In this document: positions 13,250 to 61,400 of the stretch, one piece after another
How positions within the stretch are numbered: the first letter of the stretch is position 1
Layout: every line of letters begins with the position of its first letter
Origin: Sabellastarte sp. h YS-2021
Lineage: Eukaryota; Annelida; Polychaeta; Sabellida; Sabellidae
Assembly (NCBI GenBank): GCA_964017235.1
Contig: OZ024934.1
Coordinates: 77,776,706 to 77,840,705 of the forward strand
Direction: 5' to 3'
DNA length: 64,000 nucleotides
Made by a program: the position numbers and the translations under genes
Notes under the pieces: model-generated
Databases searched by the model: none
What the model saw: only the letters and a program-made list of their open reading frames with translations
What the model was told of the DNA's origin: nothing

Positions 13250-13250
13250 C

Positions 13251-21156: not shown

Positions 21157-21250
21157 ATAAACAATTTTGAACTATTAATTTCTGTACTTGATAAAATTTA
21201 TAAAACATGCTAACTACATAGTATTTATGATACAGTTTAATCTGTTTCCT

Positions 21251-34775: not shown

Positions 34776-35017
34776 AGGGGCCACGGTGGCAGAGTGGTAA
34801 CACCCTCGCCTCCCACCTCTGAGGCCGGGGTTCGATCCCCGTCATGGCCTGTAGTGGAAAAGCTGGTAGTTGCTTGCCGTTGGTCGGCAGTTTACAGTAC
34901 AGAACCCTAACGAACTGTATGTACTGGTTTCCTCTGCCCTTCCAACTACCCGCCGTGATATGACCTGTACAGTGTTGAAAGCTATGTAAAACCCCAAATA
35001 AATAAATAAATATATAA
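34776..35017 (+). mobile_element. tRNA-derived SINE inside the Harbinger element, with 14-bp target duplication
   Basis: Full-length head, B box (GGGGTTCGATCCCC), body and AAATAAATAAATAAATATAT tail. Flanked by perfect TTAAAGTGTCACAG duplications at 34762-34775 and 35018-35031. The insertion lies between the MADF gene and the transposase gene. Confidence 0.96.
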
Positions 35018-35101: not shown

Positions 35102-36000
35102 CTATGCTTTAGCTGCCTCCAGTGGGTTGCAGTCCTCATATGGAAAATCATTACCCTCGAGCACTATTCTATGCTGGCCCTCTCCCCCAAAGTCATCCTG
35201 TTGACCTGTGGGGTATCTGATCCTCAATAGGTTGTGCAGTACAAGGCAGGCCATGACTACCCTGCCCACCACCGGAGGCTCCTGCTGCATCAGCCTCTGG
35301 AAGATCCTAAAACGAGTGAGGATCCCGAAGGCATTCGCGACCACCCTTCTTCCTTGGCTGATCCTGTAGTTGAAGACTCTCTCCTTCAAGTGCACACCGT
35401 TTCTTGAGCAGGGCTTCATTAACCAGAGCTTGAGGCAGAAAGCATGGTCCCCAAGGATGAAAAGTTCACCTTTGGTCGACCATTCCCCAGGGATTCACTC
35501 TCAGGGAAGCCGATGCTGCTGTCTTCTATTTTGTGCCTCAAATCAGAATGCTTGAAAATCTGAGCATCTGTGCTTGACCCGGCAGCCCCCATCTCCACCC
35601 AGAGGAACTTGAAGCCTCCATCCACCAGGGCCAAGAGTACTATAGAGTGGAAGCCCTTGTAGTTGTGGTAGAGGCTGCCCCCCTCTTGTGGACATCTGAT
35701 TGGAATATGCTTTCTATCCAGGGCACCCAGGACATGATGGATGTTTCATCTCTGGTGGAAGATGAACTCGACCTGCAACCAATCCTCTGGGAGTGTGAGG
35801 CACCACATCTCGATAGGCCTTGATTACAGACCTCAAGCACAAACTTGTTGATGGTCGAACTGGCCACCCTGAAGGCATACTGCAGGGTGGTGTAGCTGTC
35901 TCCACTGGCCAGGTGTCTGAAGGTGACTGCCAACTTGAGTCCTGGACTCACAGGATCACTCATCCAGGTCCTTTCCCTCTAGAGCTCAGCAGTGATTCTC
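35102..36000 (-). pseudogene. PIF/Harbinger DDE transposase, frameshifted
   Basis: Three overlapping minus-strand frames give consecutive pieces of a DDE_Tnp_4 transposase. First comes the N-terminal segment VSPGLKLAVTFRHLASGDSY and YAFRVASSTINKFVLEVC. After a frameshift near 35.74 kb follow LGALDRKHIPIRCPQ (first catalytic Asp), YKGFHSIVLLALVDGGFKF and GAAGSSTDAQIF (second Asp). After a second shift near 35.45 kb come LGDHAFCL, WLMKPCSRNG, VFNYRISQGRRVVANAFGIL and VVMACLVLHNLLRIRYP. The family motif RRVxEN.FG has Ala in place of the catalytic Glu (bases 35336-35338). Sequence before VSPGLK is interrupted by a stop. The element is therefore inactive. It is convergent with the MADF gene, as is common in the superfamily. 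Confidence 0.88.
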
Positions 36001-36469: not shown

Positions 36470-39400
36470 GATACTTACCATTTCATAGAATGTACATGTT
36501 GAAATATATACTTGAGGACCATCCATATTTTGTTAAATTTCTCCTGCTTCAAGTCTAGCAGTGCAACAAATTCTTGTTCATCATATACACATTTAACATG
36601 GTGTTTTACCTCGTTGATATCTAATGGCAATGACTTTTGTGACTGAGAAAATGTAACTTTTTGTCACCAATATTATTGTATTAAGAGGAATAAAATTATC
36701 CGGATTCAAATAACCAAATTTTCAACTGTGAGAGTTTCACTGGAATATTACTTCCTCCTGCTATCCATTTTTCTACCTCAATCAATGGTGCTTTAGTGGA
36801 TTCACATTGGCAGAATAGATGAATTAATGTTTCTGGAGAATATCTGCAAAAGGTACACATTGAGGATTGCACTTTTTCCATACTGTGTCGTAATTTCCGG
36901 GTTCCTAATATTCTATGAATGATCCTATACTGAAATCAGATAAGATAATTTTCCTGAATAGCTTTGAAACAGATTCTAAATACTTTTTTTCCAAATATGA
37001 GGTTCTATTTTCATATGAAGTTCTTCATGCCATCTAGTTATGGTTGTTATTTTAACATCCTTTTCACTCAGTAATTGATAAAAACTTTTACTTTTCCTGT
37101 CATTGTTGGTTACAACTGCCACATCAGATGGTATATGTGGTCCAGTATATTCTTTGATATTAATCTTGCTGTCTTTTATATATTTCAGAATGACAGTTCT
37201 CAGTCGTAGTATATGAAGAAAGTTTAATTCTGTGATTTTAAATTCATTTATAAGCCTATCAGTGCTGGTAAAAGTACCAGTACTGTCTATTAAGTCTCCA
37301 ATGGATTCAACACCTTTTTAAACCAGTTTGGGTAGTATAAGATCTGGTATTCTTGGATTATACCAAACAGGTAATGACAGTAACTGCTGTTCACTATTTT
37401 AGTACAGTTGCATAAATTTACCCAAGCATGGAGAACATCTCCAAAAATAATTTTTGTTTTACTATATGCTTGCACCATCCATATCCAAGCTTGGCAATCT
37501 TTCTAACAGGGGATAGAACTGATTCAAACAATTGTAGTCACCCTGATTTGTTTGTTTGAAAGAGCCTTATCATCCATGTTAATTTCAGAGATGAATAGAG
37601 TTGTGTAAGTTTACCATTCCAAGACCTCCCTGACTGTAGTCTAGCGTTACATATTTCATCTTTAGTTTATCAGGTTTACCCCGCAAAGGTATGTAAAAAG
37701 GGTTGAGTTTATATGCTGAATCATTTTTTCACTTGGAGAGGGTATAGATAAAAAAGATGATTGAATTTGGTCAACAGGAAGGTTTTTATTATGGTTATTT
37801 TACCCATTGAAATTAAATTTCTTTTTTTCCACTGATTCAAAGTTTTATGGAAATCATCCATTGTGGTGTTATAATTTAGATCTGGCATTTCTTGCAGATA
37901 AATGGAAAAATTAACACCAAGTAAGCAAAATCTGGTAATATTCCAGTCAAGATTATAATTTACCTTTAATTTTTCACCACAATATCTTTTCATTCCAATC
38001 CAAATAAGCTTGGTTTTGCATGTGTTAATTTTCAAACCTGAGAAGACCCAAATATCTCAATTGTGTTAAGTGCCTGTTGAAGTGAACAATGAGAGCCATT
38101 CAAAAAATTGGTATCATCTGCAAACTCTGTTATCTTAAATTCATTTTCACCTATTCATATTTATACCTTTGATGTCGGGATTATGTTTGATCAAATAGCA
38201 CATTATCTGACCACATAAAATAAATAAATATGGGGAAATAGGGTCCCCTTGCTTACAGCCCCGTTCTACTTTCAGGAAGTCAGACTTTACCCCAACTTGG
38301 ACAATTGCTGCAACTGAAGATGTGTTTAAAAGTTTTATCCAGTTAATATAACTTGAAGGAAATCTTTAAAATTCCAATACATTATACATAAATTTCCAGG
38401 AAATAGAGTCAAATGCTTTTTCAAAATCTATTAGCATTAATAACCCAGTTTTATCAGCCACATCACAGTAATTAATAATGTCATAAACTAATCGTATTGA
38501 TTCCCCTATGTTGTGGCCTTTGACAAACCCAGTTTGAGAGTCAGATATCAACTTATTGGCCAGTGTAGATAACACTTTGTAAAAGACACTTAAAAGACAG
38601 ATGGGGTGCCAATTTTTCAATAGTTCTCTTGATTTATCCATTTTGGTAAGCAATTTATGATGGACTGTCTTAAGGAAATAGGGAGCTGCCCCTTAATGTA
38701 GCAGTAATTCAATACTCTAGTAGCCAAAAATTTCAATTTCCCCAAAAAACTTTTAAAAATCTGCAGGAAAGCCATCAATGCCTGGTGTTTTGTTATGCGT
38801 CTGGTTTTTAATGCATCGCCAAGTTCAGAAGTTGTTAGGTTTCCTTCTAGTAGCAATTTATCACGTTTTCCAAGTTTATTGATTGGAATATTTTGAAGTA
38901 GCTTTTCAAGGTTAACATCTGATAATTCATCATCTCTGCTTTTGAATAAGTTTTGGTAATAAAGTCTCACATTATCTAGTATTTCATTTTGTGTATTTAT
39001 AATTTTACCATTGTCAAGTTGAATTTTTTTCATGGTCTTATCAACGAAATTTTTCCTTTCTAGGTCACAAAAAAATTTTGCTGGGTTTTCTCCATATTTT
39101 ATCCACTGGGCTCTTGATCTCACTGTTTGACCTTTATGTCTGGTTTCCCTAATTTTATAAAGCTCATCTTTCATTTGCTCAAGTGCACTTAATGTTTCTT
39201 CTGTTTCTGCTTTTTCAATCGATTTAATTAACTGCTTTTCTTTTGATAAATTACTGTGTTTGAGGGTTAAACTGAATTTTATTGTAGTGTTCCGTATTTC
39301 CATAAGTAGCATTTCCAATATTAAATCCTCTTTAATGGAGAATTCTAAATGTTGGTCATTTTTTCATTGATGTAGTCTAAGTTGTAAACTGGTACAACAT

Positions 39401-40215
39401 ATTAAGTGGAGATTGTTTGATTTACATTTTCTATATACTCCACATTTTTAATAGGTCGCAGTTAAACTTCCATAAACCTGGCCCTTATTGAAACTGATTT
39501 ATTGTGAGGATGAGCTCAAGAGACGAATGGTCAGATCTATAGCCTGGGTAAATTTTACAACTGTCAACCAAGTCTAGGGATGGATCTGAGACAATAAAAT
39601 AGTCTAGTCAAGCTTGTTTGACAGGGTGTTTTCTTCATGAGTATCTACAAACTTCAGGGTGCAAAACTCGATACACATCTTTAAGATTGAAACACTGCAT
39701 TGTGTCTGAAAGCTTCTGCCGTGACCTGGGGTTGTTAATGTTAATATAATTATGAGTATCTAACTTTGGATCTAGAGCTAAGTTAAAATCACCACACATT
39801 ATTAAGTAATTTTGATTGTTCTCATCAATTAAACTATGCAGATTTTCAAAGAATTGTGGTTTATCTTGGTTTGCTGCATAAATGTTAATCAACCTGATAG
39901 ACAAAGAGGTAATCTTTAAGTCAATGCACAAATAGTTTCCATCAGCATCAGATTTACTATTAATTATTTCATACTCAAAATTGTTTCTCAGTAAAACTGC
40001 CACACCTCTAAGAGTTTGTCCGTGAGCCATTTAAAATACAATGACAGTTACTAAGCTGTTTCAGGCTTGCTTCATCATCCTGTATTAAGTATGTGTCTTG
40101 TAGACAGATAACACCAGGGTGGGTCTGATTTAGGTAGTTAATAACATCTAGTCTCTTACTTTATCTCTAAGACCTTGACAGTTTGCATATAATATCTTCG
40201 ATGTTTGTCCAATAG
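36470..40215 (-). pseudogene. L1/Tx1-like LINE ORF2: endonuclease, reverse transcriptase, CCHC-like tail
   Basis: Read on the minus strand. The endonuclease begins near 40210 (LYANCQGLRDKVRD, then INYLNQTHPGVICLQDTYL), continues with RGVAVLLRNNFEYEI and has the catalytic block LIMCGDFNLALDP near 39.8 kb. The linker shows RAQWIKYGENPAKFFCDLE (about 39.1 kb), characteristic of the L1/Tx1 group. RT blocks follow: NWHPICLLSVFYKVLS, SQTGFVKGHNIGESIRLV, LLMLIDFEKAFDSISWKF, GCKQGDPISPYLF and FADDT (38110-38124). Next are KTKLIWIGMKR and NQWKKRNLISMGKITIIKTF, then a Cys-rich tail (CTFCRYSPETLIHLFCQCES, about 36.83 kb). There are multiple frameshifts and stops, so it cannot be translated intact, but the FADD motif is preserved. 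Upstream on the same strand lies its ORF1. Confidence 0.9.
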
Positions 40216-42056
40216 CCATTTAATATTATTTTGGATGGCAGCAAAAAATATCTGGCCCAATTTTGGCCACAGTTTGAGCTTTGGTCCTTCCTTAATGTGG
40301 CAAATTTTTTTTCCATCTCACAATGAAATTCTCTCATACTTTGAAAATCACAAATTAGCAGCAAAAACAGGTTCTTTTTAAGTAGTTATCAATATCAGCA
40401 AGTGAACAGCAGAAACATACACAGAAAAGCAAAAGAAAACCAGCAATACAGGCCTGAAACAATGAGTAAAATATGGTAAGAACTATCATATTTGCAAACT
40501 GAGTTTTGTATACTGGAATTAAGAATCTCCATTAAAGCAAAAACTTAGTAATATGGCTTGAGCTTCCTTTACTATACCATTGCCACCTGTTAGTTACAAA
40601 CTTTACAAAAAAAATATTCAGTAGCAGCATTTAAAAAGTAGTGAGTCTTTGAATTCAACATCACCATACTGAACACAAAAATTTCAAAATGCTTAAATAC
40701 GTCCTGGGAAAATGTGTTTGTAAAATACCTGAACATGTATAAATTAATACACAAGGGACAAAGTAATATGAGATTATCTGAAGTTACTTAAAACTAACAA
40801 ATAGCATACATTTAATGTAAACTTCATGTTTAACAACTCTAAACTAACAATTGATATTTTCAATAATAAGCATTGAAGTGCACAAACATTTCACAGCTGC
40901 ATGAGTTAAACTACCAAGTACCTGCTACTGAGATATTTACTGATATTAACCCACCAGTACAAAGTATAACCCATTTGCTTACCTTTTTTGAACTACAAAC
41001 ACTTTTTAATCCACTTTTTAATCCACAAAAAATAACTCATTGGTTTACTTTTTTTAGGTACAATCACACATGATAACCATTAAAGTATATATATTTTTCA
41101 CGGGGTGTGCAAAATATTCTATTCAAAGCTGCATTTAAGATTCATTAAAATTCTTGGAGGAAGATTTGTCAAAAAAAAATACATTTAGTGAAAGTGACAT
41201 TTACGAGGTCATTCTATTTCATATATTCATATACTTGCATTTAATGATGACTATCAAAGTTTACCTAATCAACATATTTGTGAAATGTTCAGATTCAGGT
41301 ACATATCTTAGAAGAACCACATTTCCTATAATAATGAATATAATCTAAGTGTATGATAGGCCAATTATCAAAACCCTTTGAGAACACAAAGATATACTTT
41401 ATTCCCTCACTGATACATGATTCATTAACATTTTAAAAAAAGTAAATAATAATAAAAAATATGGAATACTCATCTAGTTAACACATTTTTGAGAACATAT
41501 ATTTGTGTTAAATAGATCTATTTTGGCCTAATCAACATAGTATGGCAGCCCACGTCTCAAAAAAAAAACTTTGAGAACTCAAAAGTAACTGGATTATCTC
41601 ACTAGACTAAATATAATATTTCATTCATCATCATTTTCTAAAATAATTAAAAGCTCACCTAATGGGCACAATTTTGCAAAATTAAGAATACTCCAAACAG
41701 CTTTTAAGAGAAGTATAGTTTAAATTACAATAAGATAATTCAACATATCATACTCTTACAATGTTAGCATATTTTAAATTTTTTCACTAAAAGTTAACTA
41801 ATAGTGAGTAGCAGGTATACAGGATCTTTTCAGGTTACAACAAATAAAATAATAACCTAAATTAAAACCTGATCTTTTCAGGTTACAACAGACAGGAGGC
41901 ACTTATAAAAAGCAGACTTTCACTGGAACCGCAACAATGAATATTAAATCTTGATATAGTTAATTAATTGGTTTATATTATGGCCATGTGAAGTAGCAAG
42001 TTTTATTGCTTTGACAGATTCTTTTTTTTAACTAGTTTACCTTTAAGGAGTGAACA
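40216..42056 (-). other. Inter-ORF region of the LINE
   Basis: About 1.8 kb of AT-rich sequence between the end of ORF1 and the endonuclease. A short minus-strand frame at 40167-40364 shows no recognised domain. No independent gene or clear repeat seen, so it may contain later insertions I cannot delimit. Confidence 0.5.
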
Positions 42057-42945
42057 TTATTGCAATGAGACTTGTACTTTGATAAGAATGTCTCCAAGTA
42101 TGTTTTGTCCCTTCCACATTGACTGGTTATCCAAATTAGGGTCTTGTAGGGATAGTCCACATGAGAAATAGTTGCCCTTTGGATTAACCTCGACCAGAAT
42201 TCCTTCAGTTTGTTTGAGCTTATCTCCTAAGGTCCTGTTCTGCAGATTTTTTTTTGTGCAGGCCTGTAGCATATTCTGAGCAGCCACAGACTTCCACAGT
42301 TCCAAATTAAAATCCTTTATATGATAGTTTAAAGCTTTTGCTTGAGCTGATGAAGCTGCATTGTAAATAGCTGAAGCAGGTTTCCTTATCTTGAAAATAC
42401 AAAGCCTTTTTATACTGGAAATAGTGTTCCACCATCGGGAAGATTAAGTTGTTTTCTTCAATTTGGCATGGGTGAAAGTTACTAAGGAAGCTGTTCTTTC
42501 CAAAGAAAGCTGTCCCGTCACATTTCTGAAGTATCTTCTCTGAAAAACATCCAATTTTGGGCGTATAGAGACCATAGGGTAAGCATTCAAGAGTATCCAC
42601 TGTGTATTTTCTGCCCTCTATTATCAGAACATGGCCATGTAGCTCACAGTTGTGTATGCTTCTATGTTTTCTGGCAGCTTTAGAGAATGGCTCCAGCTTT
42701 TTACGCTATGCCTAAATCACTGGTGGAAAGTCTTCAGCCAAAATATATGCACTGCCTTTCAAGTTAAACCTATTCTTCCAAGCATTATTTCTGTCATTGA
42801 TACACAAAAACCTCACCATAATGTCCCTAGGTTTCTTAACTGTAACTGTTTTAAATGAGGTGGCTGTTTGAAGAAGAATGTTACCTGGATTATTTAGTCT
42901 CAGTTTATTGGCAAGGAAATCCAGAGTTAGTAACATAACATCTTC
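42057..42945 (-). pseudogene. LINE ORF1 C-terminal half: RRM-like, CTD and fused NADAR (YbiA-like) domain
   Basis: Minus strand. Bases 42936-42712 encode the RRM-like part of an L1-type ORF1 protein (KKPRDIMVRFLCINDRNNAW, NLKGSAYILAEDFPPVI). After two stops, KLEPFSKAARKHRSI matches the ORF1 C-terminal domain. The frame then enters a NADAR/DUF1768 domain: TAFFGKNSFLSNFHPCQ, FPMVEHYFQYKKALYFQDKE (with the conserved E-H and K-A), then after a frameshift near 42375 ASSAQAKALNYHIKDFNLEL, WKSVAAQNMLQACTKKNLQN, TLGDKLKQTEGILVEVNP and MWKGQNILGDILIKVQ. NADAR domains are predicted and partly shown to act on ADP-ribose-linked substrates. I infer it is part of the retroelement because it continues directly from ORF1 with no intron. 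The N-terminal half is displaced to 48.8-49.1 kb by a DIRS insertion. Confidence 0.82.
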
Positions 42946-43340
42946 TTTTTATTTCATAAAAATGTAATATACTCTACCACATGAAAACACTTGGGAAAGC
43001 GTGGCTTGGCGTTCAGTGACCGCCACATACACCATACATAGAATTTAAATATGTGAGGGGAGACTCTCTTTAAACCTATATACTTGCTACCTTTGACCCC
43101 TGGTGACCTAATTCACTCTGCCATGCGCAGTAATACAGAAATAGTTCATTCTTTTTGTGGCGGTTGAACTACCAACAGGCGTTTTTGCTACCTCATTAAG
43201 ACCTGCATTTACACATTTTTGATGCTCTGTAAGTAGTTTTTTGCTGTTTTATTCACTCCTCCATTTTCTTTACCTTTTACTTCGGTTTCGGTTGAATTTA
43301 TTGTGTACTTTGGGCAATATTTTTAGGTATTTTTTCAAAA

Positions 43341-43930
43341 TTCGTATTATCGCTCATCTGATCACGTGGTGTTAGAATGTCGGATTGCCTTTGGAGATAT
43401 TCATTTCCTTGGTAAATTAATTTGTTTTATGCACTTCTACAGGCATTATAATTTTAATTTACGGTTTTCCTTCATTCTTTCAACGAAATTCTTCGTTTCA
43501 CTGCATATTTTGACCGTATTGTCACCTTGAGTGTGCATTGTTTTTCCACATAGTTACAAAGTTCGTATTATCGCTCATCGGGTCACGTGGTGTCAGAATG
43601 TTAGATTTCCTTTGGAAATATTCATTTCCGCGGTGAATTAATTTCTTTATGCACTTCTACAGGCATTATAATTCCCCATTTACGGTTTTCCTTCATTCTT
43701 TTCAGGAAATTCTTCGTTTCACCGTGTATATTGACCATATTTTTTTTAGCTTTTTACAAATCATTCCCCAGGTCACATGACGATGACGTCACATCCAAAA
43801 ATGAGGTCAACCAATCGGTTGTCAGAAATATTTATTTTCATACTGGTTACAGCATTTCCAGGTTTGTTTATGCATTCCTTCTACATAATTCTTTTAGTAT
43901 TGTTATGTCAGAGCATAATGTGTAATAATT
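43341..43930 (+). repeat. Imperfect ~220-bp tandem repeats in the DIRS leader, copy A
   Basis: Units start at about 43341 and 43562 with TTCGTATTATCGCTCATC, followed by GTCACGTGGTGT, CCTTTGGA.ATATTCATTTCC, GCACTTCTACAGGCATTATA and a TTCATTCTTT..GAAATTCTTC segment. A third, more diverged unit follows from about 43756. The same arrangement occurs in copy B. Confidence 0.85.
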
Positions 43931-45429
43931 TCCATTGTTAATGCACATTTCATAGCGTGACATTACGGTATTTACTAACTACCATTCACGGTTCATTACT
44001 TGTACAGGCCCTTTCATTTGACATTTCTGGGATACGGTTTCAGTGTTTTTGGGTTCAATTCTGAACCTAGGGTCTCCATTTTCAACCTTTCCCCACCTTC
44101 AAATCTGGAGGATGGTGGTAAACGGTTCATGGGGTTGACTTGTTCTTCCCCTTTGGAGATCCATGTCACTGTTACTGGTTTCCTACATTCCAATTTTGTC
44201 ATTTTGGTCATTTGGTTTCTCAGCCCATTATTAGTCCTTTGGCCTCTTTGTGCCTAAGGCTCAGCCTCATCAGGCTGTCTTTTTGGTGCTGGGATTACTT
44301 TATCAAGACCATTTTTGTTAAGGGTCCCTTAAGAAGAGTTTATCAGTTGAATCCAACTGATTTTGATACTTCCTAAACTCAGCTCCATACTTTTTCTTAA
44401 TCTAGAAAAATTTTTGTTTGGGGCTTGGTGAAAATCTTGTGTTACTCAACAGCTTTCTATTGATTTTCACCATTTTTTAGATCTGACTACCAATGGGCAC
44501 ATCTCACTTTTGGGTAGGTTGGGGTCCCTCTGTCTATAGTTAACCTTTAGGCAGACTTCAGGGACCCTATTCCAATATTTTTGGTGCCCGTCTGTTGGAC
44601 TATATGGATGCTTAGGGCTTCATCCTTCAATCTTCTCCACAGAAGATTTTCAAGGCTTCCTGTCCAACAGAATTAGGGGATAAATTTGACTGCTCTTTCC
44701 TTTGGATCAGTCTTATTTTTCTCGAAGTCATCCACTTTTTCCAGGCTTGGATGTTCCTTTGTGAGGCCAGATACTTACTTTCTGTCACTCATTCATTTTG
44801 GGATCTTCTCATTCTAAGTTTTATAGGTTGGGTAATTACCCAAATTTACCCTCTAAAATTTAGTTTTACCAGGTACAAACCCTCTTCAGAGGGTTTTTTG
44901 GGTTGACTTGCTCAGGTTTCCGGACCTGGAATCTAGCTTGGCCTGGTAGGGAAGACCTCCTCTTCCCTAAGCAGAGGTCCTCTGCTATTAAGGGAGATCT
45001 GAGATCGATCTTCGGGTCCTTAGTACTGTGGGATTTTTTCCTTCAGTCCTGTTTTGTCGATCACTTATTCAAGTTGATTGACCAGGTAATACTTCTCAGT
45101 GGTCTTTTTCATCCACCATACTTTGAACATCTTTTCAGTGGATCTTTCAGCTCCATTTTAGCTGGTTGATCTATGGCCTTATTCAGCCATCTTTGCGCCT
45201 TTTTTTGAGAGATTTTTTATCCATTTCCCTCTCTTGTGCCTAGTCACTTGGTAGAGTAATTTGGGCCAATAAAGACCTTTCTCCTCCCAACTAGGGAGTC
45301 TTCTCTCTAACTTAGTGCTTTAGGGATGTGGTTCCTTTCCAGGTTCCAACATTCTGATGGTGGAATGCCTTCCACAGGTAGAGGCTCAGCCTCAACCTCT
45401 ATCATGGTGTCCTTCAGGAGATAGGAGTG

Positions 45430-48020
45430 TTTTGTTTTATTCAACCTTTCACTCTTACTTCCAGATCCCTCCACTTGCCAGTGGGAGGTCAACTGATTTC
45501 TTCCATTTCATTTGAAATGTTTATGTGCAGCCTTTCTTTTTCCAGCATTCTGGAACTTGGTTCACATTCCAGTGGTCTCTCAGATTCCAATTTCCTGATT
45601 TCTTCTTCAGCTCTTCTCTTCAGAAGAATGCTGTTCTTTGTCAGTCAGTCTCACACTGTCTGTTCACATGAGCAGTTCAAGTATCTTGAGCTCCTGTTTT
45701 CCTGATTTCTTTCAGGGCATTATTTTATGACAAAGATATACTGGAAACCACCATTAGATTTTTATCTTTTCCTGGTTTTCCAACTATCAGGATGCAACTT
45801 ATTAGTTGATCATTTTCTCAGTTGGCCAGTGGGCCACTTCTCTTCCTCAATTTGCCTACTTTCTCTCCTTTGGCTCCTTTGGTTCATTCTTGCTCAGAGT
45901 TTTGCTTTTGGGCAGGGTGTATCACTTTGTGGCAATGCCTTAGGGCCTAGCCACTAGCCTTTCAGGATTTAAGGAAGTAAGGAAAGTTGGCTTTGAGGTT
46001 GGGCATCTCAGTGCACATGTGACTATAATTGGCTCATTAGAGCCAATAGTTGTCAGAGGCTCATTTGGCAACTCTCTTAGAGTTGACTTTCAACTTGGAG
46101 TGGTTCTTAGCAGGAATTATTTAGATCTGTTCTTACAACAGGTCTTCTTCCTGGGTCAGGTTTTTAACCTATCTAAAGGTGTTCCTGACAGGGACAAGGT
46201 TCTGTCTATTCAGCAGCTCTTCCTTCATCTTTGATGTAGCAGTCCAATCTGTTCATCAGTTCTAGAGCTCATAGCTGTCCTTTTTGCTCGGACATTTCTT
46301 CCTGTATTATCCTTTCATCAAAGGATCATCCTTTCAGCCTCAAACAACACAGATGTCTTGTTCTCAAGACATTTGTTCCTCACTTGTCCTTTCTTTAAGG
46401 GACACTTCAGATAGTTTCAGGTAACACTATTGTCTGTGTTTTCTTTTTTATATCAAGAGAGCTTCCACTCTTGGGACATGTGTATCTATTTTGGCACTTT
46501 TTGCCATTATTTTTACAAGAACAAGTCTGTTTTTCCACCTTCTCATGTTCCAGGGGCATGAATACTTGACCGACCATCTCTGGAGGTCTTATCTCACCTT
46601 TCATATAAAGTGGTCGCTCTATTCTTGGATCTTCAGATGGTAGTCTCGGACTTCTCATCTGATTTAGATCTCTTTTGCCATGTGATTCAATCACAAGCTG
46701 CTCTTGCATGTGCCTCCTGTGCTAGATCCTTAGGCTCTGGCAACAGATGCCCTGGAGTGCTTTGGTCCGGAGTACTTGTTTTCGTCCTTCCCTCCTTCAG
46801 CTCTTTGTCCTCTATGGCCAGGAAGTTAATCAACTTTCAGAGCTGTACCATTCTTCTTGTAGCCTTCCTTGGCAAGTGCCAAGTTTTTGGCCTCAAGATC
46901 TCCTTTAAGAAAGCCATTGGCTCTTCCTCTTATTCTTCTATAACAATCTCATCTAGAGTTTTGTTATTAATTTTTATGGAGTTCCTTTTTTCAAGCTTTC
47001 TGGCTGAAGTCTCCTTTAAGAAGAATTTTCAGAGGAGGGGTCTTGGAAGATTTTTATCCTCCATTACTGTCTATGATGCAATGTGGAACTGCATTAAAAA
47101 TTGGGAGGAACATGGCCACTCTGCCATGCCTTAACTGACCCTTTCATTGTTGTTTGTTCCTTTTAAGGAATTATTTTTCAGACAATGGGAATACAGGTCA
47201 GCTCTCTCCAGGTACTACTTGGAGTTGGGTTCCTATAGGGAGCTTGGAAGTCTCTTTTAGAGCTTCTTTAAGTCCACACTAAGGGTACTCATCACCTACC
47301 TTTTGGTACTTAAAACCTTGGTTCTGCAGGCTCTTACCAAGGCTCCTCTTGAACCCTGTTTTCTTGCTGAGCCAAATTTTTCACATATTAGACAGTCTTT
47401 CTTCTCCCTTTCTTTGGGAAGGAGAAGGAGTGATTTTGATTCCTTTATTTAAAGGTTTTCTCTCACTCTCTAGGGATGGCCTAAGTCATCCTTAAGTCAG
47501 ATCTTACTTTCCTGGCTTAAGCCAGTTATCTTCAGAAGGCTCTTCCTGCTTTGACTTTTTGTCTTTGGTCAGGATGACTTAGAGGACCTCTCCTTTCCTA
47601 CAGTCAGATTCCTAAGATACTATCTATCTAGCTTTTCTGACTTTCTTAGGAGGATTTCTACTTGGGCTTTCTTCTGAAGTTCAAAGAGGGTGATATTACT
47701 GCTCAGACAATATCTTTTTGGATAACATTTTATCCTTTATTCCCTCTAATTCTGTTCCACATGTGAAGGCCAATGATGTTTTTGCCCAGGTTTTATTCTG
47801 GTCTCTCCGGTGGTTTCCCACTGCTTCACATCATGGGGATTCCTCTCAGAATTCTTGCACTTCACTTATTTCCCTTCAGAGATGTTGTTCTTAAGAATCT
47901 CTATGATTTCTTAAGTGTAGTGCACTTATGTTTCCACTCAGGCACTTATGTTTCCACTCAGGCCATTCTCTCTCTTCTGCTTAAATTCCTCAATTTAAGT
48001 CATTCTGAGACTTTTTAGTC
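45430..48020 (+). pseudogene. DIRS polyprotein remnants (RT/RNase H and tyrosine recombinase), copy A
   Basis: No long frame is left; recognisable stretches are spread over three plus-strand frames. WSLRFQFP near 45.57 kb resembles the RT of DIRS elements. W-S-G-V-L-V-F-V-L-P-S-F-S-S-L-S followed by ARKLINFQSCTILLVAFLG (46.75-46.9 kb) matches the 'W..YVFPPFSLL..VL.KI......LIAPFWP' block after the DIRS RNase H. VKANDVFAQVLFWSL and then LHLFPFRDVVL (47.76-47.9 kb) match the recombinase end 'AHDVRA..SSW ... YLRDVV', with the conserved Arg of H-x-x-R replaced by Phe. Many stops and frameshifts; inactive. The assignment of individual blocks is by eye. Confidence 0.55.
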
Positions 48021-48354
48021 TGAGAAAAAGGAGGGCAGCATTTCCCTTTTAGGGAATCTGTTCTTCATCTCCATTTTCAGAATCGTGCTTCTTAGTGCCT
48101 TTTGGCATGTTCCTATTCTGAGCACAGTGGCATATTTATGCCTTCTCCTTTGAGCTGACCTAATAGGGTGTAGACAGCAGTGCTGAAGTTCTTGCAGTGG
48201 TTAATTCTACTCATTTAACTCAGTAGAGTTATTTCTTCAGCACAGAAGTTTTTGGGTTCAATTGCACCAGGAAGTATCCTCTTTTTGCAATTTAACCTTA
48301 GGGTGGTTTTCCCCAGTCTGTCTTTTCCCACCATCCTTCCATGTGGGCATTCAA

Positions 48355-48446
48355 CCCAAGTGTTTTCATATGGTAGAGTATATTACATTTTTATGAAATA
48401 AAATTTCATATTTTTAAATGTAAAAAAATGTATATACTTACCATAT
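48355..48446 (+). repeat. Internal complementary region of the DIRS element
   Basis: Bases 48355-48403 are the reverse complement of the element's extreme left end (one mismatch in 49). The abutting bases 48403-48446 are the reverse complement of its extreme right end (TTTCATATTTTTAAATG TAAAA, then ATACTTACCATAT), with a short deletion. Head-to-head complements of both termini form the internal complementary region proposed to template circle closure in DIRS replication. Confidence 0.85.
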
Positions 48447-48790
48447 AAAAACAGCAAATCACCCTCCCGCCTGCAACGCTTTTAAAAGACCTTTTTCCAG
48501 CATTTATGTTTATTCACAAAAAGAATGAACTATTTCTGTATTACTGCGCATGGCAATTAGGTCACCAGGGGTCAAAGGTAGCAAGTATATAGGTTTAAAG
48601 AGGGTCTCCCCTCATATATTTAAATTCTATGTATGGTGTATGTGGCGGTCACTGAACGCCAAGCCACGCTTACCCAAGTGTTTTCATATGGTAAGTATAT
48701 ACATTTTTCTTCATAAAAATGTATTTTACATTTAAAAATATGAAATTTGGTCCCATTTCAGCGACACCTTTTATGATCAAATTATTTTTC

Positions 48791-49150
48791 CTACTGTACG
48801 TTTCTATTTCCTTCAAGTTCCACATTTCTCTTTTCCAGTGTATCTACCTTTTGACACAATTCTTTGATTTCTTTGGAGTTTGTTTCACATTGTGCCTTAT
48901 AAGTATCCACCTCCATTGAAACTGTACTAATCCTATTCAAGTCTTTCATCATGAAACCAAAAACTGCAGCAAACCAGTCCGGAGTATTCCCTTTCACATT
49001 AATAATTGCCTCCTCCCTTTCCTCAAATTCTTCCTTTTGGCTCAGCATATCCACTGTCTTTTCTGTTAACTTTTTGGCATTACTTGAAAATTCATTTTTA
49101 ACATAAAAATCTGATTCAGAGCAGAACTGAGATTTCTTTTTATCATTGCA
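48791..49150 (-). pseudogene. LINE ORF1 N-terminal half: coiled coil
   Basis: The minus-strand frame contains KKLTEKTVDMLSQKEEFEER, WFAAVFGFMMKDLNRI and a heptad-like K-E-I-K-E-L-C-Q-K-V-D-T-L-E-K-R-N-V-E-L, as in the trimerising coiled coil of L1 ORF1 proteins. It stops 40 bases from the DIRS insertion, on whose other side the RRM-like half continues. A stop codon upstream (near 49.15 kb) marks the beginning of what can be read, so the true ORF1 start is lost or upstream. Confidence 0.7.
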
Positions 49151-50285
49151 TTAAATAGTCTTTCAGAAACTATCTAAATTTGTCACAAATTAACTGATCA
49201 CAAAGTATATCAGATTCCAGTCACTGCATAATATCATTGATCCTTTACTGGTGACATTAAAAGCAAAATTTATAGTTTGCCTTAGTTCTAGTTGTTTTTT
49301 TTTCAAGTCTGCTTCTATGTGTTGACTTTGCCAGTCACATAATTAGCAAGTAAAGTGTGCCAGTTGATAAAGGCTGACATCCAGTATTAATGCCTATGTT
49401 TACTCTGTAATCCACATAATAGACTAGAGACCATGCACGTAATTAACAAATAAAGTGTGGTCAATGACAAAGGCTGATATCTAGTATTATAACCTATGTT
49501 TATTCTATAAACTGATTAACACTTCTACTAGAGTAGTGACCACAGACAAACTTGACACCTTGTTCAATGTATGTTACACTTCACTGGTTCTGCAAGATTA
49601 GTTCTTGTAGTAATCCATATTAATGCATAAAGTTTCCTTTCAAATATTCATTTATATATTCATTTATATTCATAATATTCATAAATCTCTGGCAAAAATC
49701 ATTTCCTAAAAAAGTTTCATTCCAGTAAAAAACACACTTCATCTCTGCAAAGTTAAAACATGACTGGTATCTCTTACTTTCCTAATTTCCACCAAACTTT
49801 GCCATCATGAAAATATAGATCACAGATTGCAAATTACAGAAATGAAAAGCCTTAAACAAACTATCCGGTAGTTATTGTTTTTAAATTATTAATTGTTTAT
49901 TGATAAAAATACTGAATTTCCTGCAAGTTCTGTTTCTATTTATGTCTGCCACCATAAACATTGGCTACATGTTAGATGCAGTGGTAGTTTAGTAAACAGT
50001 GGGTGTAATTTGCTGTTTGCTGAAATATGCTTACCACTCCTGTAATGTTTGACGCAGCCTATGTTCCTCTGGGTGAGTATGATAAAGAAACGGAATTAGT
50101 AGTTTGTTTATTTTATTTTATTGTGTGTGTGTGTGGGGGGGGGGGGGGGGGGCAGTAAGAGAGCCAAACTGATAAAAATGTTATCCAACACAACAGTGGA
50201 ACTTCTCCTGACATGTTGGGTTTTTTCTAGTTCTCTTTATTTTAAAGTCTTGAGTCAAATCAATAAATTTGTAGAGTTAAGTTCG
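49151..50285. other. Right flank of the LINE; no gene recognised
   Basis: AT-rich. It contains a partly repeated phrase (TTAGCAAGTAAAGTGTGCCA near 49346 and TTAACAAATAAAGTGTGGTC near 49443, each followed by AAAGGCTGAYATC), a diverged two-unit direct repeat of about 95 bp. Possibly the LINE 5' untranslated region with repeated promoter units. Confidence 0.45.
50121..50152 (+). repeat. (GT)n followed by a poly-G tract
   Basis: Seven GT dinucleotides pass directly into 18 G. Confidence 0.95.
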
Positions 50286-50520: not shown

Positions 50521-50880
50521 AAAAAAACATGATTCCTACCGAGGCTCACGCTTAATAATGTTCAGTCACACTACAGAGGGTATTGTCTTTATTTTAGTTA
50601 GTTTTGTACAAGGCCTTATTCCTCAATGTATTAATATGGATTTATGTGTCAACCATAAATATTTCATAGGATGAAACATTCTGTCACTTGTTTTGTTAAT
50701 GATAAAAAACAACAGGGTCACTCACTACATGAGGACATAATTACACTTCTGTTAATAAATATTATCATAATGCACTGGTATAATCCTATTAGTCTGAATT
50801 ATGACGTTGTGTCATTTATATGGCACAAATTATCATCTTTAAAATAAGGCTGCTCAAAATAGAATTCAAAACAAAAAAGT

Positions 50881-53800
50881 AAATTTTTATTTCATAAAAA
50901 TGTAATATACCCTACCATATGAAAACACTTGGGTAGGCGTGGCTTGGCATTCAGTGACCACTACATACACCGTACATGGAATTTAAAATATGAGGGGAGA
51001 CCCTCTTTAAACCTATATACTTGCTACCTTTGACCCCTGCTGACCTAATTCACTCTGCGCAGTAATACAGAAATAGTTCATTCTTTTTGTGGCGGTTGAA
51101 GTGTCAAGAGGCGTTTTTGCTACCTCATTAAGACCTGCATTTACACGTATTTGATGCTGTGTGAGTACTTCTTTGCTGTTTTATTCACCTTTCCTCCATT
51201 TCCTTTATCTTTTACTTCGATTTCTGGTGAATTTATTGTATATTTGTTCAATATTTTTACGTATTTTTTCACAATTTGTATTATCGCTCATCTGGTCATG
51301 TGGTGTTAGAATGTCGGATTGCCTTTGGAAATATTCATTTCCTTTGTAAATTAATTCGTTTTATGCACTTCTACAGGCATTATAATTTTAATTTATGGTT
51401 TTCCTTCATTCTTTCCACGAAATTCTTCATTTCACCACGTATTTTGACCGTATTGTTAACTTGAGTGTGCATTGTTTTCACATAATTACAAAGATTTTAT
51501 TATTGTTCATCAGGTCACGTGGTGTCAGAATGTTGGATTTCCTTTGGAAATAGTTATTTCCGTTGTGAATTTTTCATTTCTTCACTTCTACTGGCTTTAT
51601 AATTGCCAATTTAGGTTTTCCATTATTCTTAACACGAAATTCTTCATTTTACCGAATATTTGACCTTATTTTTGAGCTTTATACAAATCATCTCACCAGG
51701 TCACATGACTCTGATGTCATACTTAAAATGGAGGTCAACCGATCGGTTGTTTGAAAATACTCATTTTCTCAGTGATTACAGCATTTCCACATTTCTTTGT
51801 GCATTCCTTTTTCATAATTCTTTGATTATTATTCTTTCAGAGCATTGTGTGTAATACCTCCCTTTGTTATCGCATATTTCATAGTGTAACATTACAGTAT
51901 TCACTACCTACCATTCACGGTTCATTATTTTTACAGGCCCTTTCATTTAACATTTCTGGGATACGGATTCTGGTTTCAGTGTTTTGGGGTTCAATTCTGA
52001 GTCCAGGGTCTCCATTTCAGCCTTTCCCCACCTTCAATTCTGGAGGATGGTGGTTTACGGCTCTTGGGGATGACTTTGTCGTCTACCTTTGGAGATCCAT
52101 ATCACTGTTACTGGTTTCCTACATTCCAAATTTGTCATGTGGTCATTTGCTTTCTCAGTCCATTTTCAGTCTTTTGGCCTCTTTTGTGCCTAAGGCTCAG
52201 CCTAATGAGTCTGTCTTTTTGGGCTGGGATTACTTTCTCAAGACCATTTTTGTTCAGGGTCCCTTAAGAGTTTATCAGTTGAGTCCAACTAATTTTGCTA
52301 CTTCCTAAATACAGATCCATTCATTTTCTAAATCTAGAAAATTTTTGTTTGGGGCTTGGTGGAAATCTTCTGTTACTCAACAGTTTCCTATTGCATTTTC
52401 ACCATTTTTTAGATCTGACTTCCAATGGGCACATCTTCCTTTTGGGTATGTTGGTGTCCCTCTGTCTTTAGTTAACCTTTAGGCAGACTTCAGGGACCCT
52501 ATTCCAATATTTTTGGTGCCAGTCTCCAGTCTGTTAGACTTTATGGATGCTTAGGACTTTGTCGTTCAATCTTCTCCACAGAAGATTTTCAAGGCTTCCT
52601 GTCCAACAGAATTAGGGAATAATTTGACTGCTCTTTGACCAGTCTTATTTCTTTCTTAGTCATCCACTTTTTCCAGGCTTAGAAGTTCCTTTGTGAGGCC
52701 AGATACTTACTTTCTGTCACTCATTCATTTTGGGATCTTCTCATTCTAAGTTTTATAGGTTGGGTAATTACCCAAATTTACTCTCTAAAACTTAGTTTTG
52801 CCAGGTACAAACCCTCTTCAGAGGGTTTTTTGGGTTGACTTGCTCAGGTTTCCGGACCTGGGATCTAGCCTGGTGGGGTTCTGAAGACATTCTCTTCCCT
52901 AGGCAGAGGTCCTTTGCTATTAGGGGAGATCTGAGATGGACCTTCGGGTCCTTAGTACTGTGGGATTTTTTTCCTTTAGTCCTGTTTTGTTGATCATTTA
53001 TTAAGTTGATTGACCAGGCAATACTTCTCAGTGGTCTTTTTCATCCACCATGCTTTGGACATCTTTTCAGTGGATCTTCCAGCTCCATTTTAGCTGGTTG
53101 ATCTACGGCCTTTTTCAACCATCTTTGCACTTTGTTTTGAGAAATTTCTTTATCCATTTCCCTCTCTTGTGCCTAGTCACTTGGTAGGGTAATTTGGGTT
53201 CTCCTCCCAACTAGGGAGTCTTCTCTCTAACTTAGTGCTTTAGGGATGTGGTTCCTTTCCAGGTTCCAACATTCTGATGGTGTAATGCCATCCACAGGCA
53301 GAGGCTCAGCCTCAACCTCTATCATGGTGTCCTTCAGGAGATAGGAGTGTTTTGTTTTATTCAAACTTTCACTCTTACTTCCAGATCCCTCCACTTGCCA
53401 GTGGGAGGTCAACTGATTTCTTCCATTTCATTTGAAATGTTTGGGTGTCAGCCTTTCTTTTTCCAGAAGCCTGGAACTTGGTTTTCACCTTCCAGTGGTC
53501 TCTCAGATTCCATTTTTCCTGATTTCATCTTCTTCAGCTTTTTTGCTGCTCTTCAGAAGTATGCTGCTCTTTGTCATTCAGCCTCACACTTGCTGTTCGT
53601 AGGAGCACTTCAAGTGCCTGGGCTCTCTTTTACCTGATTTTCTCAGGGTCCCTTTTTCCTTGACAAAGAGATAGAAGACTGGAAACCAGCATTGGATTTA
53701 GATCTTTTCCTACATTTGGATCTTTTCCTGGTTCTCCAAACTATCAGAATGGAAACTTTTCAGTTGATCTTTTTCTCACTTCTAATTGGCCAGTGGACCA

Positions 53801-56509
53801 CTTCTCTTCCTCAATATGCCTCCTTTCTCTCCTTTGGTTCACTCGTGTTCAGAGTTTTGCTTTTGGGCAGGGTGTACCACATTGTGGCAGTGCCTTAGGG
53901 CCTAGCCACTAGCCTTTCAGTTTTTACTTCCTTAGTCAAGGAAGTAAGGAAAGTTGGCTTTAAGGTTGGGCATCTCAGTGCACATGTGACTACATATAGG
54001 CTCATTAGAGCCAATAGTTGTCAGAGGCTCATTTGGCAACTCTCTTAGAGTTGACATTCAAGTTGGAATGGGTTTTAGCAGGAAGGATCTGTTCCTACAA
54101 CAGGTCTCCTTCCTGGATCAGGTTCTTAGCCTGTCTAAAGGTGTTCCTCTCAGGGGCAAGGTTCTGTCTATTCAGCAGCTCATCCTTTCTCTGCCTTGGA
54201 ACACCTTTAAATTACCTCTGCAACTGGGCACCTTTATTTCTCTTGGCTTCCACTTGGAAGCCACTTCTTCAAGGTCTCCTGCACATGACACTTCTTCAGT
54301 GTCATCTCAGGACACTTTGATTTTCCTTCTCAAAGGTGCTCTGGATTGTCCATTCTTTGATCCTTCTATGAAGGTTCATTTAAGACGGCACTTTCCTGGG
54401 AACTATGTCTCTGCATACCTCCCTTTTATTCCCTAGTTTTACATCTACTTTCATGGATGTTTCACTTCAGGGTTTGGGAGTTCTTTGTGCTCTTTTGACC
54501 ACCTAAGGTCCATCTTTGATGTAGCAGTCCAATCTGTTCATCACTTCTAGAGCTCATAGCTGTCCTTTTTGCTCAGACATTTGTTTCTGTATTATCCTTT
54601 CATCAAAGGATCATCCTTTCAGCCTGAAACAACACAGATGTCTTGTTCTCAAGACATTTGTTCCTCACTTGTCCTTTCTTTAAGGGACACTTCAGATAGT
54701 TTCAGGTAACACTGTTGTCTGTGCTTTCTTTTTTATATCAAGAGAGCTTCCACTCTTGGGGTGTATCTATTTTGGCACCTTTTGCCATTTATTTTTACAA
54801 GAACAAGTCTGTTCTTCTACCTTCTCGTGTTCCAAAGGTATGAATCCTTGGCAGACCATCTCTGGAGGTCTTATCTCACTTTTCATATAAAGTGGTCTCT
54901 CTATTCTTGGATCTTTAGATGGTAGTCTCAGACTTCTCATTTGATTTAGATCTCTTTTGCCATGTGATTCAATCACAAGCTGCTCTTGCATGTGCCTCCT
55001 GTGCTAGATCCTTAGGCTCTGGCAACAGATGCCCTGGAGTGCTTTGGTCCGGAGTACTTGTTTTACTCCTTCCCTCCTTCAGCTCTTTGTCCTCTATGGC
55101 CAGAAAGTTTAATCAACTTTCAGAGCTGTACCATTCTTCTTGTAGCCTTCCTTGGCAAGTGCCAAGTTTTTGGCCTCAAGATCTCCTTTAAGAAAGCCAT
55201 TGGCTCTTCCTCTTATTCTTCTATAACAATCTCATCTAGAGTTTTGTTATTAATTTTTATGGAGTTCCTTTCTTCAAGCTTTCGGGCTGAAGTCTCCTTT
55301 AAGAAAAATTTTCACAGGAGGGGTCTTGGAGGATTTTTATCCTTCATTACTGTCTATGATGCAATGTGGAACTGCTTCAAAACCTTGTGAGGAACATGGC
55401 CACTCTGCCATGCCTTAACTGTCCCTTTCATTGCTGTTTGTTCCTTTTAAGGAATTATTATTTTCAGGCAATAGGGATACAGGTCAGCTCTCTCCAGGTA
55501 CTACTTGGAGTTGGGTTCTTATAGGGAGCTTGGAAGTCTCTTTTAGAGCTTCTTTAAGTCCACAATAAGGGTAGTAGTCACCTACCTTTTGGTACTTAAA
55601 CCTTGGTTCTGCAGGCTCTTACCAAGGCTCCTCTTGAACCCTGTTTACTTGCTGAGCCAAATTTTTCACATATTAGACAGGTTTTCTCTCACTCTCTAGG
55701 GATGGCCTAAGTCATCCTTAAGTCAGATCTTACTTTCCTGGCTTAAGCCAGTTATCTTCAGAAGGCTCTTCCTGCTTTGACTTTTTGTCTTTGGTCAGGA
55801 TGACTTAGAGGACCTCTCCTTTCCTACAGTCAGATTCCTAAGATACTATCTATCTAGCTGTTCTGACTTTCTTAGGAGGATTTCTTCTTGGTCTTTCTTC
55901 TGAAGTTCAAAGAGGGTGATATTGCTGCTCAGACAATATATATTTTTGGATAACATTTTATCCTTTATTCCCTCTAACTCTGTTCCACATGTGAAGGCCC
56001 ATGATGTTTTTGCCCAGGTTTCATTCTGGTCTCTTCAGTGGTTTCCCACTGCTTCACATCATGGGGGATTCCTATTGGAATTCTTGCACTTCACTTATTT
56101 TCCTTCAGAGATGTTGTTCTTAAGATTCTCTGTGATTTCTTAAGTGTAGTGGACTTTGTTTTCACTCAGCCATTTCTCTCTCTTTTCCACTTAAATTCCT
56201 TAATTTAAGTCCATCTGAAACTTTTAGTCTCAGAAAAAGGGGGGCAGCATTTCCCTTTTAGGGAATCTGTTCTTCATCTCTATTTTCAGAACCATGCTTC
56301 TTAGTGCCTCTTGGCATGTTCCTATTCTGAGCACAGTGGCATATTTATGCCCTCTCCTTTGAGCTGACCTAATACGGTGTAGACAGCAGTGCTGAAGTTC
56401 TTGCAGTGGTTAATTCTACTCATTTAACTCAGTAGAGTTATTTCTTCAGCACAGAGGTTTTGGGTTCAATTGCACCAGTAAGTATTTTACATTTAAAAAT
56501 ATGAAATTT
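50881..56509 (+). mobile_element. DIRS-like retrotransposon, copy B, right end deleted
   Basis: Collinear with copy A from the left terminal repeat (50881-51100) through the leader repeats (51275-51860) to GTTCAATTGCACCAG at 56485. There it jumps to TATTTTACATTTAAAAATAT GAAATTT, the last ~25 bases of the element, so the internal complementary region and nearly the whole right inverted repeat are missing. It also lacks 63 bp present in copy A at 47395-47457 and keeps about 310 bp that copy A lost. The left boundary matches copy A's left boundary. Confidence 0.82.
53350..56150 (+). pseudogene. DIRS polyprotein remnants, copy B
   Basis: As in copy A but with an extra block at 54.1-54.4 kb: KVLSIQQLILSLPWNTFKLP, then SLGFHLEATSSRSP and MKVHLRRHFPG. 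This matches the RT-to-RNase H connection of DIRS elements ('IQ.LI.SL...P......LG.L.SL....P..RLH....' then 'LRWW'). The recombinase remnant reads VKAHDVFAQVSFWSL near 56.0 kb, keeping the His of H-x-x-R but not the Arg. Stops and frameshifts are shared with copy A at many places, which suggests both derive from an already defective or recently common source. Confidence 0.55.
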
Positions 56510-58223
56510 AATCAACTCTCAGTTGACTTTGTTTATTTTTAAATAAGTCAAGAAAAGTTTTAAAATTCTTTACACTCCCCTGGTAAATGAAAACCCAATA
56601 AATCATGATTCAGCCCTCAGCACAGTTTTCTTATAATGTCTCGTGTGTTTAGAATTGGGGTGTGTGATTTTTTTAATGAATTCTTACTACCTAGTGTACC
56701 AGTACTTCTATTTTTAGTTATAGGTTTAGTTTAAGGCACATTTAAATTGAAGATAGCTTGTAAACTTACAAATCGGACATAAGTTTGTCCACATTTACTG
56801 TCAACTTTGTACCTTAAATCAAGGTAACCTCATTGTATGAAAGTGGCCTTTTAAGACTTTTATTGTTCTGTCTTCAACTAAAATTTTATTTGAACTTAAA
56901 CTTAATTCAATTGAACTTAAAAGAAATTAGTTCTAAGTATTTTTAGGAAATAAGCTGGGTTTAAGATGCATTAAATGATAGTTACGATTGTCACTGTGAT
57001 TGTATATAAAATTAAGTTATTTATTAAACTAATCTAGTCTCCTTATATCATGGTGCAATGCCCCTATTATGGTATTTCTGATAGTTACAGAGGAAAGGTA
57101 AAACAAAGACAGAATATTCCACTGTCTGTGAAACCCAGCTCCAAACCTCCAGCAATAGTTTCCAAATCTGGTAGAACAATACCCCACAGTTGCACACAGA
57201 TTTACCAGCTGTTGCAAAAGATACAGTTGGGAGCTCACAAGTAACCTTACGGCAAACAGTTAACTTCAGCAGACAATAAAGAATGACAAAGACTAGAGGT
57301 AAAGCAGCAAAATAACTACAGAAATGATGTGACACCTTAAAGTTATGGATGGTTATGTGCAGTGTACTTTATACGGCCTATGGTAAAAGCTACCACTCAG
57401 GTAGTAATTCAATAGAAAAACTACCATAATACAGTTCATGTAGGAATGGGATGTTATGTACAATATATTGGTAAACTGAGACAATACCGCCTGTAGCTTA
57501 CAGGTAAAAATATAGAGTGGCATTTAATTCAATGTAAAAGGATTGAAATGTATAACATGAATTTGTCTATTGTCTCTATCCTGTTCGAGATATTTAATCA
57601 ACTTAAAAGTTTTAAAAATGAGTTAACACTTTTTGAATTTCGTAAGCAGTCATATCATGCTCTCCCAATTTTCCCATTTCATCATGTATTTTATTGAATA
57701 TTATTTCCTTGACCCCATTAAACTAGGTAACATTTTCACAGAATTAGAAGGTTTCAGTAGTCACTGTGAATAGGACTGTGTAATGTTGCAATACATTCAC
57801 AACACCCGACACCTCACCCGCCTAAAAAGAGGAGAATTTGTAGTTTGTCCATATCATTTCCCTCAAATCTGAGTGAAAGAGTTATTAGCCTTTTTTGTAG
57901 TTGTTGTTTGGCAATTGAAACAGATCAATGAAAAGTAATGATGTTCTTAAAACTATATTTTTTATTTTATTATATCCATCTTAATCTCATTTTCATATCC
58001 ATTGATTTATTTGTGCTATTTTATTACTTACATAGCTTATTTTTACGTAGCTTGCAGTATGGGGTCTTTTTCATCACACAAAAAATAGAAAAATATAAAA
58101 CAAAGAAAAAAGTATACAACTTCAACCTTGAACCGTGTACACAACATCACGAATCAACATACATGCCTTTGAAAACTTTGAGTTCAGAAGTTTCAGTTCA
58201 TATTATGCATTCTTACATAATCT
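56510..58223. other. No gene recognised
   Basis: AT-rich sequence. Open frames on both strands around 57.03-57.34 kb overlap each other and show no family features. No repeat family identified. Confidence 0.45.
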
Positions 58224-61386: not shown

Positions 61387-61400
61387 TATATACGTGACCA

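Follow-up and report, generated by a model that had tools for sequence, protein, structure and literature searches.

A NADAR domain at the end of ORF1 in LINEs of a sabellid annelid: a decayed L1/Tx1-type copy and its open relatives

NADAR domains of the YbiA family have been noted in retroelements before. In one passage, which gives no anatomy, a 2025 report states that several Tx1 LINE families of Crassostrea gigas in Repbase seem to encode such a domain in their ORF1 proteins, and it also mentions Gypsy elements of Ectocarpus that are likewise retroelements with a NADAR, but LTR elements with the NADAR in Pol (PMC12477816). Esterase- and PHD-bearing ORF1s of CR1/L2 elements, as described in PMC4120745, likewise combine an accessory ORF1 domain with the transfer of whole ORF1s between lineages, in that case CR1 and L2, both within the Jockey superfamily. 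We analyzed a 64,000-nt stretch of contig OZ024934.1 from Sabellastarte sp. h YS-2021 (hereafter the window), in which the original prediction had placed a NADAR fused to the ORF1 of an L1/Tx1-like LINE, an architecture that it did not know as a standard LINE ORF1. The decayed LINE copy at this locus is of the L1/Tx1 type and comes from a family whose ORF1 normally ends in a NADAR. The architecture is therefore real but, going by the C. gigas passage, was already reported in kind in 2025 (PMC12477816). Both systems have a YbiA-family NADAR in the ORF1 of a Tx1/L1-type LINE, a likeness drawn from the description and not from sequence; the present analysis adds the order of the domains, the residues, recently made copies, an unbroken relative collinear with the window copy, and the same ORF1 on elements of the CR1/L2 type. 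Among the top-ranked results from open-licence literature, Repbase and subscription papers lying outside the scope, no report of a NADAR in CR1/L2-type LINEs was found.

In the window, the fusion lies on the minus strand: an ORF1 with coiled coil, RRM and CTD leads into a YbiA-type NADAR, and an EN-RT ORF2 follows downstream (Table 1). A single open frame running from 42705 to 42310 spans the ORF1 CTD and the first half of the NADAR, and a frameshift near 42375, inside the domain, places the remainder in another frame (42443-42060). When the halves were compared with the Pfam NADAR profile (PF08719, 163 positions), the first matched positions 9-57 with 26.5 bits, under the 35.1-bit cut-off, and the second matched positions 64-162, over the cut-off. 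Just ahead of the CTD, two in-frame TAG stops occur at about 42714 and 42708. The isolated RRM/CTD pieces of the window were not recognized by Pfam or in the PDB, and Pfam gave no RRM match for them.

The window pieces line up in order with L057, an intact ORF1 of 446 aa from a different contig, at 60-70% identity. By tblastn, residues 9-119 of L057 aligned with window 49141-48812 (63% identity), 101-160 with 48888-48700 (33%), 146-363 with 42945-42310 (60%) and 330-446 with 42410-42060 (70%); by blastn, the identity to 48748-49155 was 72%. The alignment passes straight through the CTD/NADAR junction, where neither an intron nor a transposon border, either of which the original prediction had named as a sign of chance capture, is present. 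L057 and the open genomic copies described below have the same architecture.

The border at 42945 is the edge of a nested transposon of ~5.8 kb that lies in the RRM, beyond which ORF1 resumes at 48748-49155. Self-comparison of the window aligned 42946-48277 with 50884-56485 in two pieces at 87-91% identity, and the inverted ends of the transposon, ~200 bp long (42958-43159 and 48515-48708), are 94% identical. The second window copy of this element lies at about 50876-56510, and part of it was also seen beside another locus (L052); the one frame of the element that was scanned gave no Pfam match.

ORF2 of the window, on the same strand as ORF1, comprises an APE-type endonuclease (EN) and an L1-type reverse transcriptase (RT). 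Pfam recognized the RT (RVT_1, E=8.2e-11), and Exo_endo_phos_2 was matched at E=2.5e-4, under its cut-off; the closest solved structure to the EN is the LINE-1 endonuclease 2v0s (E=9.8e-14). The RT piece is 60% identical to that of L044, and ORF2 aligns, in pieces and in several frames, with residues 1-1258 of a 1265-aa relative. Neither EN nor RT pieces of the window matched CR1/L2-type loci at E<=1e-5. Because the ORF2 matches come in pieces and several frames, in addition to the stops, the frameshift and the nested insertion, we regard the window copy as dead; with no intact ORF left, it is a pseudogene. In all likelihood, the ORF1-ORF2 spacer is part of the element, because its length is similar to that in L044. 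Gaps of about 1.3-3.3 kb between ORF1 and ORF2 were seen in the L1-type elements (window 42059-40220; L044 2072-3917; L055 1972-4574; also L043, L046 and L047), and such long gaps raise the question of how ORF2 is translated.

Table 1. Features of the LINE copy and of an interspersed repeat, in window coordinates
Feature	Position	Strand	Evidence
ORF1 N-terminal part, coiled coil and start of RRM, YSRKNNLIIKGVAE	48748..49155	-	tblastn and blastn with L057
Nested transposon in ORF1, not part of the LINE	42946..48747		second copy, inverted ends, junctions
Rest of RRM and start of CTD, two TAG stops near the end	42706..42945	-	tblastn with L057
CTD and linker, in the same frame as the first NADAR half	42526..42705	-	open frame 42705-42310; L057 alignment
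NADAR first half, active-site E and K in VEHYFQYKK	42376..42525	-	PF08719 E=8.9e-6 (below cut-off); YbiA-type alignment
NADAR second half, shifted frame, LVE kept, D and C-terminal R changed	42060..42375	-	PF08719 E=3.7e-15; 70% identity to L057
ORF1-ORF2 spacer, about 1.84 kb	40220..42059	-	comparison with L044 (about 1.85 kb)
ORF2 apurinic-type endonuclease domain, damaged	39446..40219	-	45% identity to L044 EN; PDB 2v0s E=9.8e-14
ORF2 RT and C-terminal region, several frames, stops	36517..39363	-	RVT_1 E=8.2e-11; L055 ORF2 aa 292-1258, L044 RT
Interspersed repeat of ~230 bp, copies 81-95% identical	10134-10357, 10539-10777, 14890-15121, 20932-21164, 34776-35016, 58848-59077, 61152-61392	both orientations	self-comparison

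The genome (1.786 Gb, 647 contigs) was searched for further NADARs, and the best 150 of 2705 first-look candidates were scored; all 150 passed the Pfam cut-off. By score and frame length, the 38 best resemble stand-alone genes, and the other 112 form an ORF1 class, 50 in frames of at least 400 aa and 62 in shorter frames. Twenty ORF1-class loci, picked for long frames and hence uninformative on the 62 short ones, were read, and in every one an N-terminal tail, coiled coil, RRM, CTD and NADAR share one frame of 443-500 aa. Fifteen of these ORF1s were inspected in full; the remaining five hardly differ from L037 and keep its frame. In 19 of the 20 loci, the ORF1 is followed on its own strand by EN or RT, an arrangement that the original prediction had suggested looking for; in L052, no LINE ORF2 was seen within the 6.7 kb examined. 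RT motif A was present in 18/20 loci and motif C, by pattern, in 17/20, with L053 carrying it as LADD and L050 deleted there. When six ORF2s, three per LINE kind, were run against Pfam, RVT_1 was over its cut-off in all six and an endonuclease family in five, L048 being just below. Three genomic ORF1s matched Pfam NADAR with E-values of 1.4e-43 to 1.6e-42.

Two further searches approached the same group from other sides. With the NADAR half of the window as query, the best 150 of 1310 candidates were scored; the nearest after the query itself shared 70% identity with it and included a copy within an open frame of 446 aa. With the RRM-CTD of L054 as query, 86 of the best 150 of 1197 candidates lay in frames of at least 400 aa, and a NADAR match lay just downstream, by coordinates, in at least 42 of the 150, in 39 cases 22-52 bp away. 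This count is a lower bound, the coordinate matching having taken in the ORF1-class matches, 3 of the 38 stand-alone ones and 12 of the 150 from the search with the window half. Nine of the 108 RRM matches without a paired NADAR match were followed downstream, and a NADAR was found behind all nine, seven in a continuous frame, one past a frameshift and one past a stop. ORF1 copies of this group that lack the domain, the observation named in the original prediction as speaking against it, were absent from the 20 loci and the nine unpaired matches read. The ORF1-NADAR fusion is thus a property of element families and not of one locus. Identity among copies L037-L042 is 99.2-99.9% across stretches of 2.2-6.3 kb; for L051 and L055 it is 99.7% over 7.7 kb. 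In each case the copies lie at different places in the genome, indicating that both element types moved recently.

A profile built from 13 genomic ORF1s was compared with solved structures in the PDB. Profile positions 105-267 matched human LINE-1 ORF1p (2ykp) with E=1.4e-10, and mouse ORF1p comprising only RRM and CTD (2ldy) was matched with E=5.8e-4, whereas the RRM alone (2w7a) reached only 0.11. The coiled-coil part is unspecific, as the profile also matches unrelated coiled coils from E of about 0.001. The layout of ORF1 is that of an L1-type ORF1p, with the order coiled coil, RRM and CTD in common with the human protein, which to our knowledge has no NADAR. The NADAR part matched 8bau, which we take to be the NADAR of P. 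nicotianae, with E=1.4e-34 and E. coli YbiA (2b3w) with E=4.7e-23; both have the domain and catalytic residues in common with the genomic ORF1s, but neither is fused to an ORF1.

The ORF2s that follow these ORF1s are of two kinds. Nine loci in seven families have an L1-type ORF2, and ten loci in five families (L037-L042, L048, L049, L054 and L056) have an ORF2 of a putative CR1/L2 type. In the latter, the RT motif QGS.LGP.LF occurs in nine of ten loci (not L049), and all ten have, close to the beginning of ORF2, a 2A-like stretch, DIE.NPGP; we take these to be marks of the CR1/L2 (Jockey superfamily) kind. L043 alone has a match to the L1-type motif QGDPISP; the other L1-type loci were placed by motif A, EN and the RT tree. 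The clades are named from motifs, and the RT tree, which contains no named reference RTs, separates the two kinds at 100/100.

The identities of ORF1 and RT do not run in parallel. Between L044, which is L1-type, and the five CR1-type families, ORF1s are 49-57% identical but RTs only 23-27%; between L044 and L046, both L1-type, the values are 34% for ORF1 and 54% for RT. The former contrast suggests that the ORF1-NADAR module has passed from one LINE superfamily to another, and a single passage between the two kinds, in either direction, would be the simplest reading. Trees were also compared. Forcing the RT clade of L043, L044, L045, L046 and L055 together on ORF1 was rejected (p-AU 0.0017), for a clade chosen after seeing a tree, against the test's own warning, and the converse test, with RT, had a p value of 0.0596. 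The CR1-type ORF1s group together (75/89), which also counts against a conflict, and in a reduced set without L047 and L053, unrooted trees cannot show a conflict between ORF1 and RT. The identity contrast is the firmer evidence. The transfer between CR1 and L2 lineages described in PMC4120745 stays within Jockey, whereas the sharing seen here spans L1-type and CR1/L2-type elements. The NADAR tree was poorly resolved, the LINE NADARs being split from bacterial and phage references plus a solo genomic NADAR at only 88/87. By tblastn, related sequences were found in 554 phage and 38 plasmid records, all below 60% identity, and most of the plasmid matches carried a NADAR family annotation among the matches listed. 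Scans of viral contigs with window pieces gave no relative.

Mutation is reported to show that guanine-ADPr hydrolysis needs three residues, E, K and a last-strand E/D (PMC11543638). In an alignment of 13 families, read by eye, E, K, D, W and the C-terminal R were each present in 13/13 and LVE in 12/13. The exception is L055, which has K for the E of LVE, although its near-identical sisters L050 and L051 retain E; when L050 was swapped in for L055, all six catalytic positions were invariant. Both the window copy and L057 keep the active-site E and K and the last-strand E. The window copy has lost D and the C-terminal R and has F for W, whereas L057 has F for W but retains D and R; on this account we rejected the idea that the family as a whole lacks D and R. 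The D/R loss in the window copy would accordingly be decay or divergence, and the W-to-F change is common to the two.

Nucleotide comparison of L045 and L050 gave pN 0.168 and pS 0.732 for NADAR (ratio about 0.23), 0.146 and 0.619 for RRM plus CTD (ratio about 0.24), and 0.214 and 0.590 for the N-terminal part of ORF1. In this pair, NADAR is constrained as much as the RNA-binding part. The dN/dS of NADAR between copies, a measure proposed in the original prediction, was low where it could be computed (0.068 for L045-L050 and 0.077 for L048-L056), but these are rough values near saturation (dS 2.8 and 4.2, respectively), and three of five pairs were saturated and not computable. Recently copied elements have preserved NADAR as an open and plausibly catalytic domain.

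In LINEs, ORF1p is the protein that coats the RNA. Our best explanation, to which we give about an even chance of being right, is that the NADAR ending ORF1 strips ADP-ribose from the nucleic acids of the element so that ADP-ribosylation by the host cannot block reverse transcription or integration. By coating the element RNA, ORF1p would place numerous NADAR units on that RNA and at the insertion site, where they would act as ADP-ribosyl hydrolases on nucleic-acid bases, of which guanine is the known substrate, and would remove ADP-ribose from the RNA, the cDNA or the target DNA; host ADP-ribosylation would then no longer block reverse transcription or integration. We infer every step beyond the conserved residues, and the anti-host-defence role draws on the catalytic residues together with published NADAR biochemistry.

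We favor removal of ADP-ribose because NADARs are reported to hydrolyze guanine-linked ADP-ribose on DNA with conserved residues, namely E, K and E/D in the last strand (PMC11543638, PMC11125620), and because PARP1 is reported in nuclear human L1 complexes (PMC5821459). Two published observations count against it: E. coli YbiA has also been described as an N-glycosidase acting on riboflavin intermediates (PMC9303266), and a given ADP-ribosylating toxin is not countered by every NADAR (PMC11125620). The F in place of the conserved W in L057, the nearest relative of the window copy, also speaks against a reading based on catalysis. We know of no host enzyme that modifies these elements. If the NADAR were an active ADP-ribosyl hydrolase, these LINEs would carry their own enzyme against nucleic-acid ADP-ribosylation, in parallel to bacterial NADAR antitoxins and to the NADARs of invertebrate RNA viruses, and would point to an unrecognized host restriction pathway in animals. 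The unbroken young copies make the predicted hydrolase role directly testable.

Among the other explanations, the most probable is that NADAR serves the element's own RNA metabolism, acting on NAD-derived ends or on ADP-ribose products of RNA processing or repair, and has no anti-defence role. The match to LINE-1 ORF1p marks the carrier as an RNA-binding protein, processing of RNA intermediates is suggested in the 2025 report (PMC12477816), and the nematode NADAR protein SNA-3 is described as essential for trans-splicing and dependent on its NADAR residues (PMC9303266). However, the activity reported for NADARs of E. coli strains and a phage is hydrolysis of guanosine-ADPr on DNA (PMC11125620), and no NAD-cap activity of NADARs was found in the literature cited here; we consider this role rather unlikely.

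It is improbable that NADAR clears soluble ADP-ribose signals or toxic by-products of an immune response, with ORF1 as a mere carrier. Such a function was proposed for viral NADARs, chiefly those of phages, in a study that, in the same discussion, favors macromolecular targets for eukaryotic RNA viruses (PMC9503650), and it would leave unexplained why each of the ORF1 loci read has the domain joined to a protein that coats RNA. A NADAR that is now a non-catalytic module binding nucleic acid or ADP-ribose would fit the F for W in L057 and the K for E of LVE in 1 of 13 aligned copies; however, E, K, D and R are retained in all 13 families and in L057, and the single E-to-K copy has near-identical sisters with E, so that we regard a purely binding role as quite improbable. 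Chance capture of a host gene, or a chance neighbor, at this locus only would agree with the broken state of the window copy and its interruption by a nested transposon, but L057 and the many open copies elsewhere in the genome refute it.

Returning to ADP-ribose removal as the preferred reading, a broader proposal can be made tentatively, and we think it less than probable: NADAR was joined to an L1-type ORF1, the resulting mobile module was exchanged between L1/Tx1 and CR1/L2 (Jockey) elements, and it may serve an abundant, recently active group of LINEs as an intrinsic means of countering ADP-ribosylation of their nucleic acids by the host. If so, this animal would restrict LINEs by nucleic-acid ADP-ribosylation. 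An ORF1 module common to two LINE kinds would also represent ORF1 swapping beyond the Jockey superfamily.

A second class of NADAR in this genome consists of stand-alone genes of ~160-170 aa with many similar copies. The 38 best-scoring matches have frames of 167-179 aa; 30 loci were fetched (L007-L036) and three translated. The median nucleotide identity per locus is 83-94%, and the shared stretches measure between about 0.5 and more than 3 kb. In one of these loci, an inhibitor-of-apoptosis gene (L021:2807-3433; BIR E=9.9e-19, RING) lies 0.9 kb from the solo NADAR on the opposite strand.

In the 64,000-nt window as a whole, there were no tRNA or Rfam matches. More diverged pieces of the ~230 bp repeat lie at 3760 and 29477, and a DDE_Tnp_4 transposase fragment lies at 35422-35745 on the minus strand (E=2.9e-10). 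Minus-strand frames at 13134-13394 and 1250-1537 presumably correspond to exons resembling patatin-like phospholipase. Among the genomic LINE loci, a ~133 bp repeat array is common to L042:3590-6129 and L054:7846-9801, with about 91% identity at many offsets; in L042 it lies within the stretch that interrupts ORF2, and in L054 it is found downstream of the LINE.
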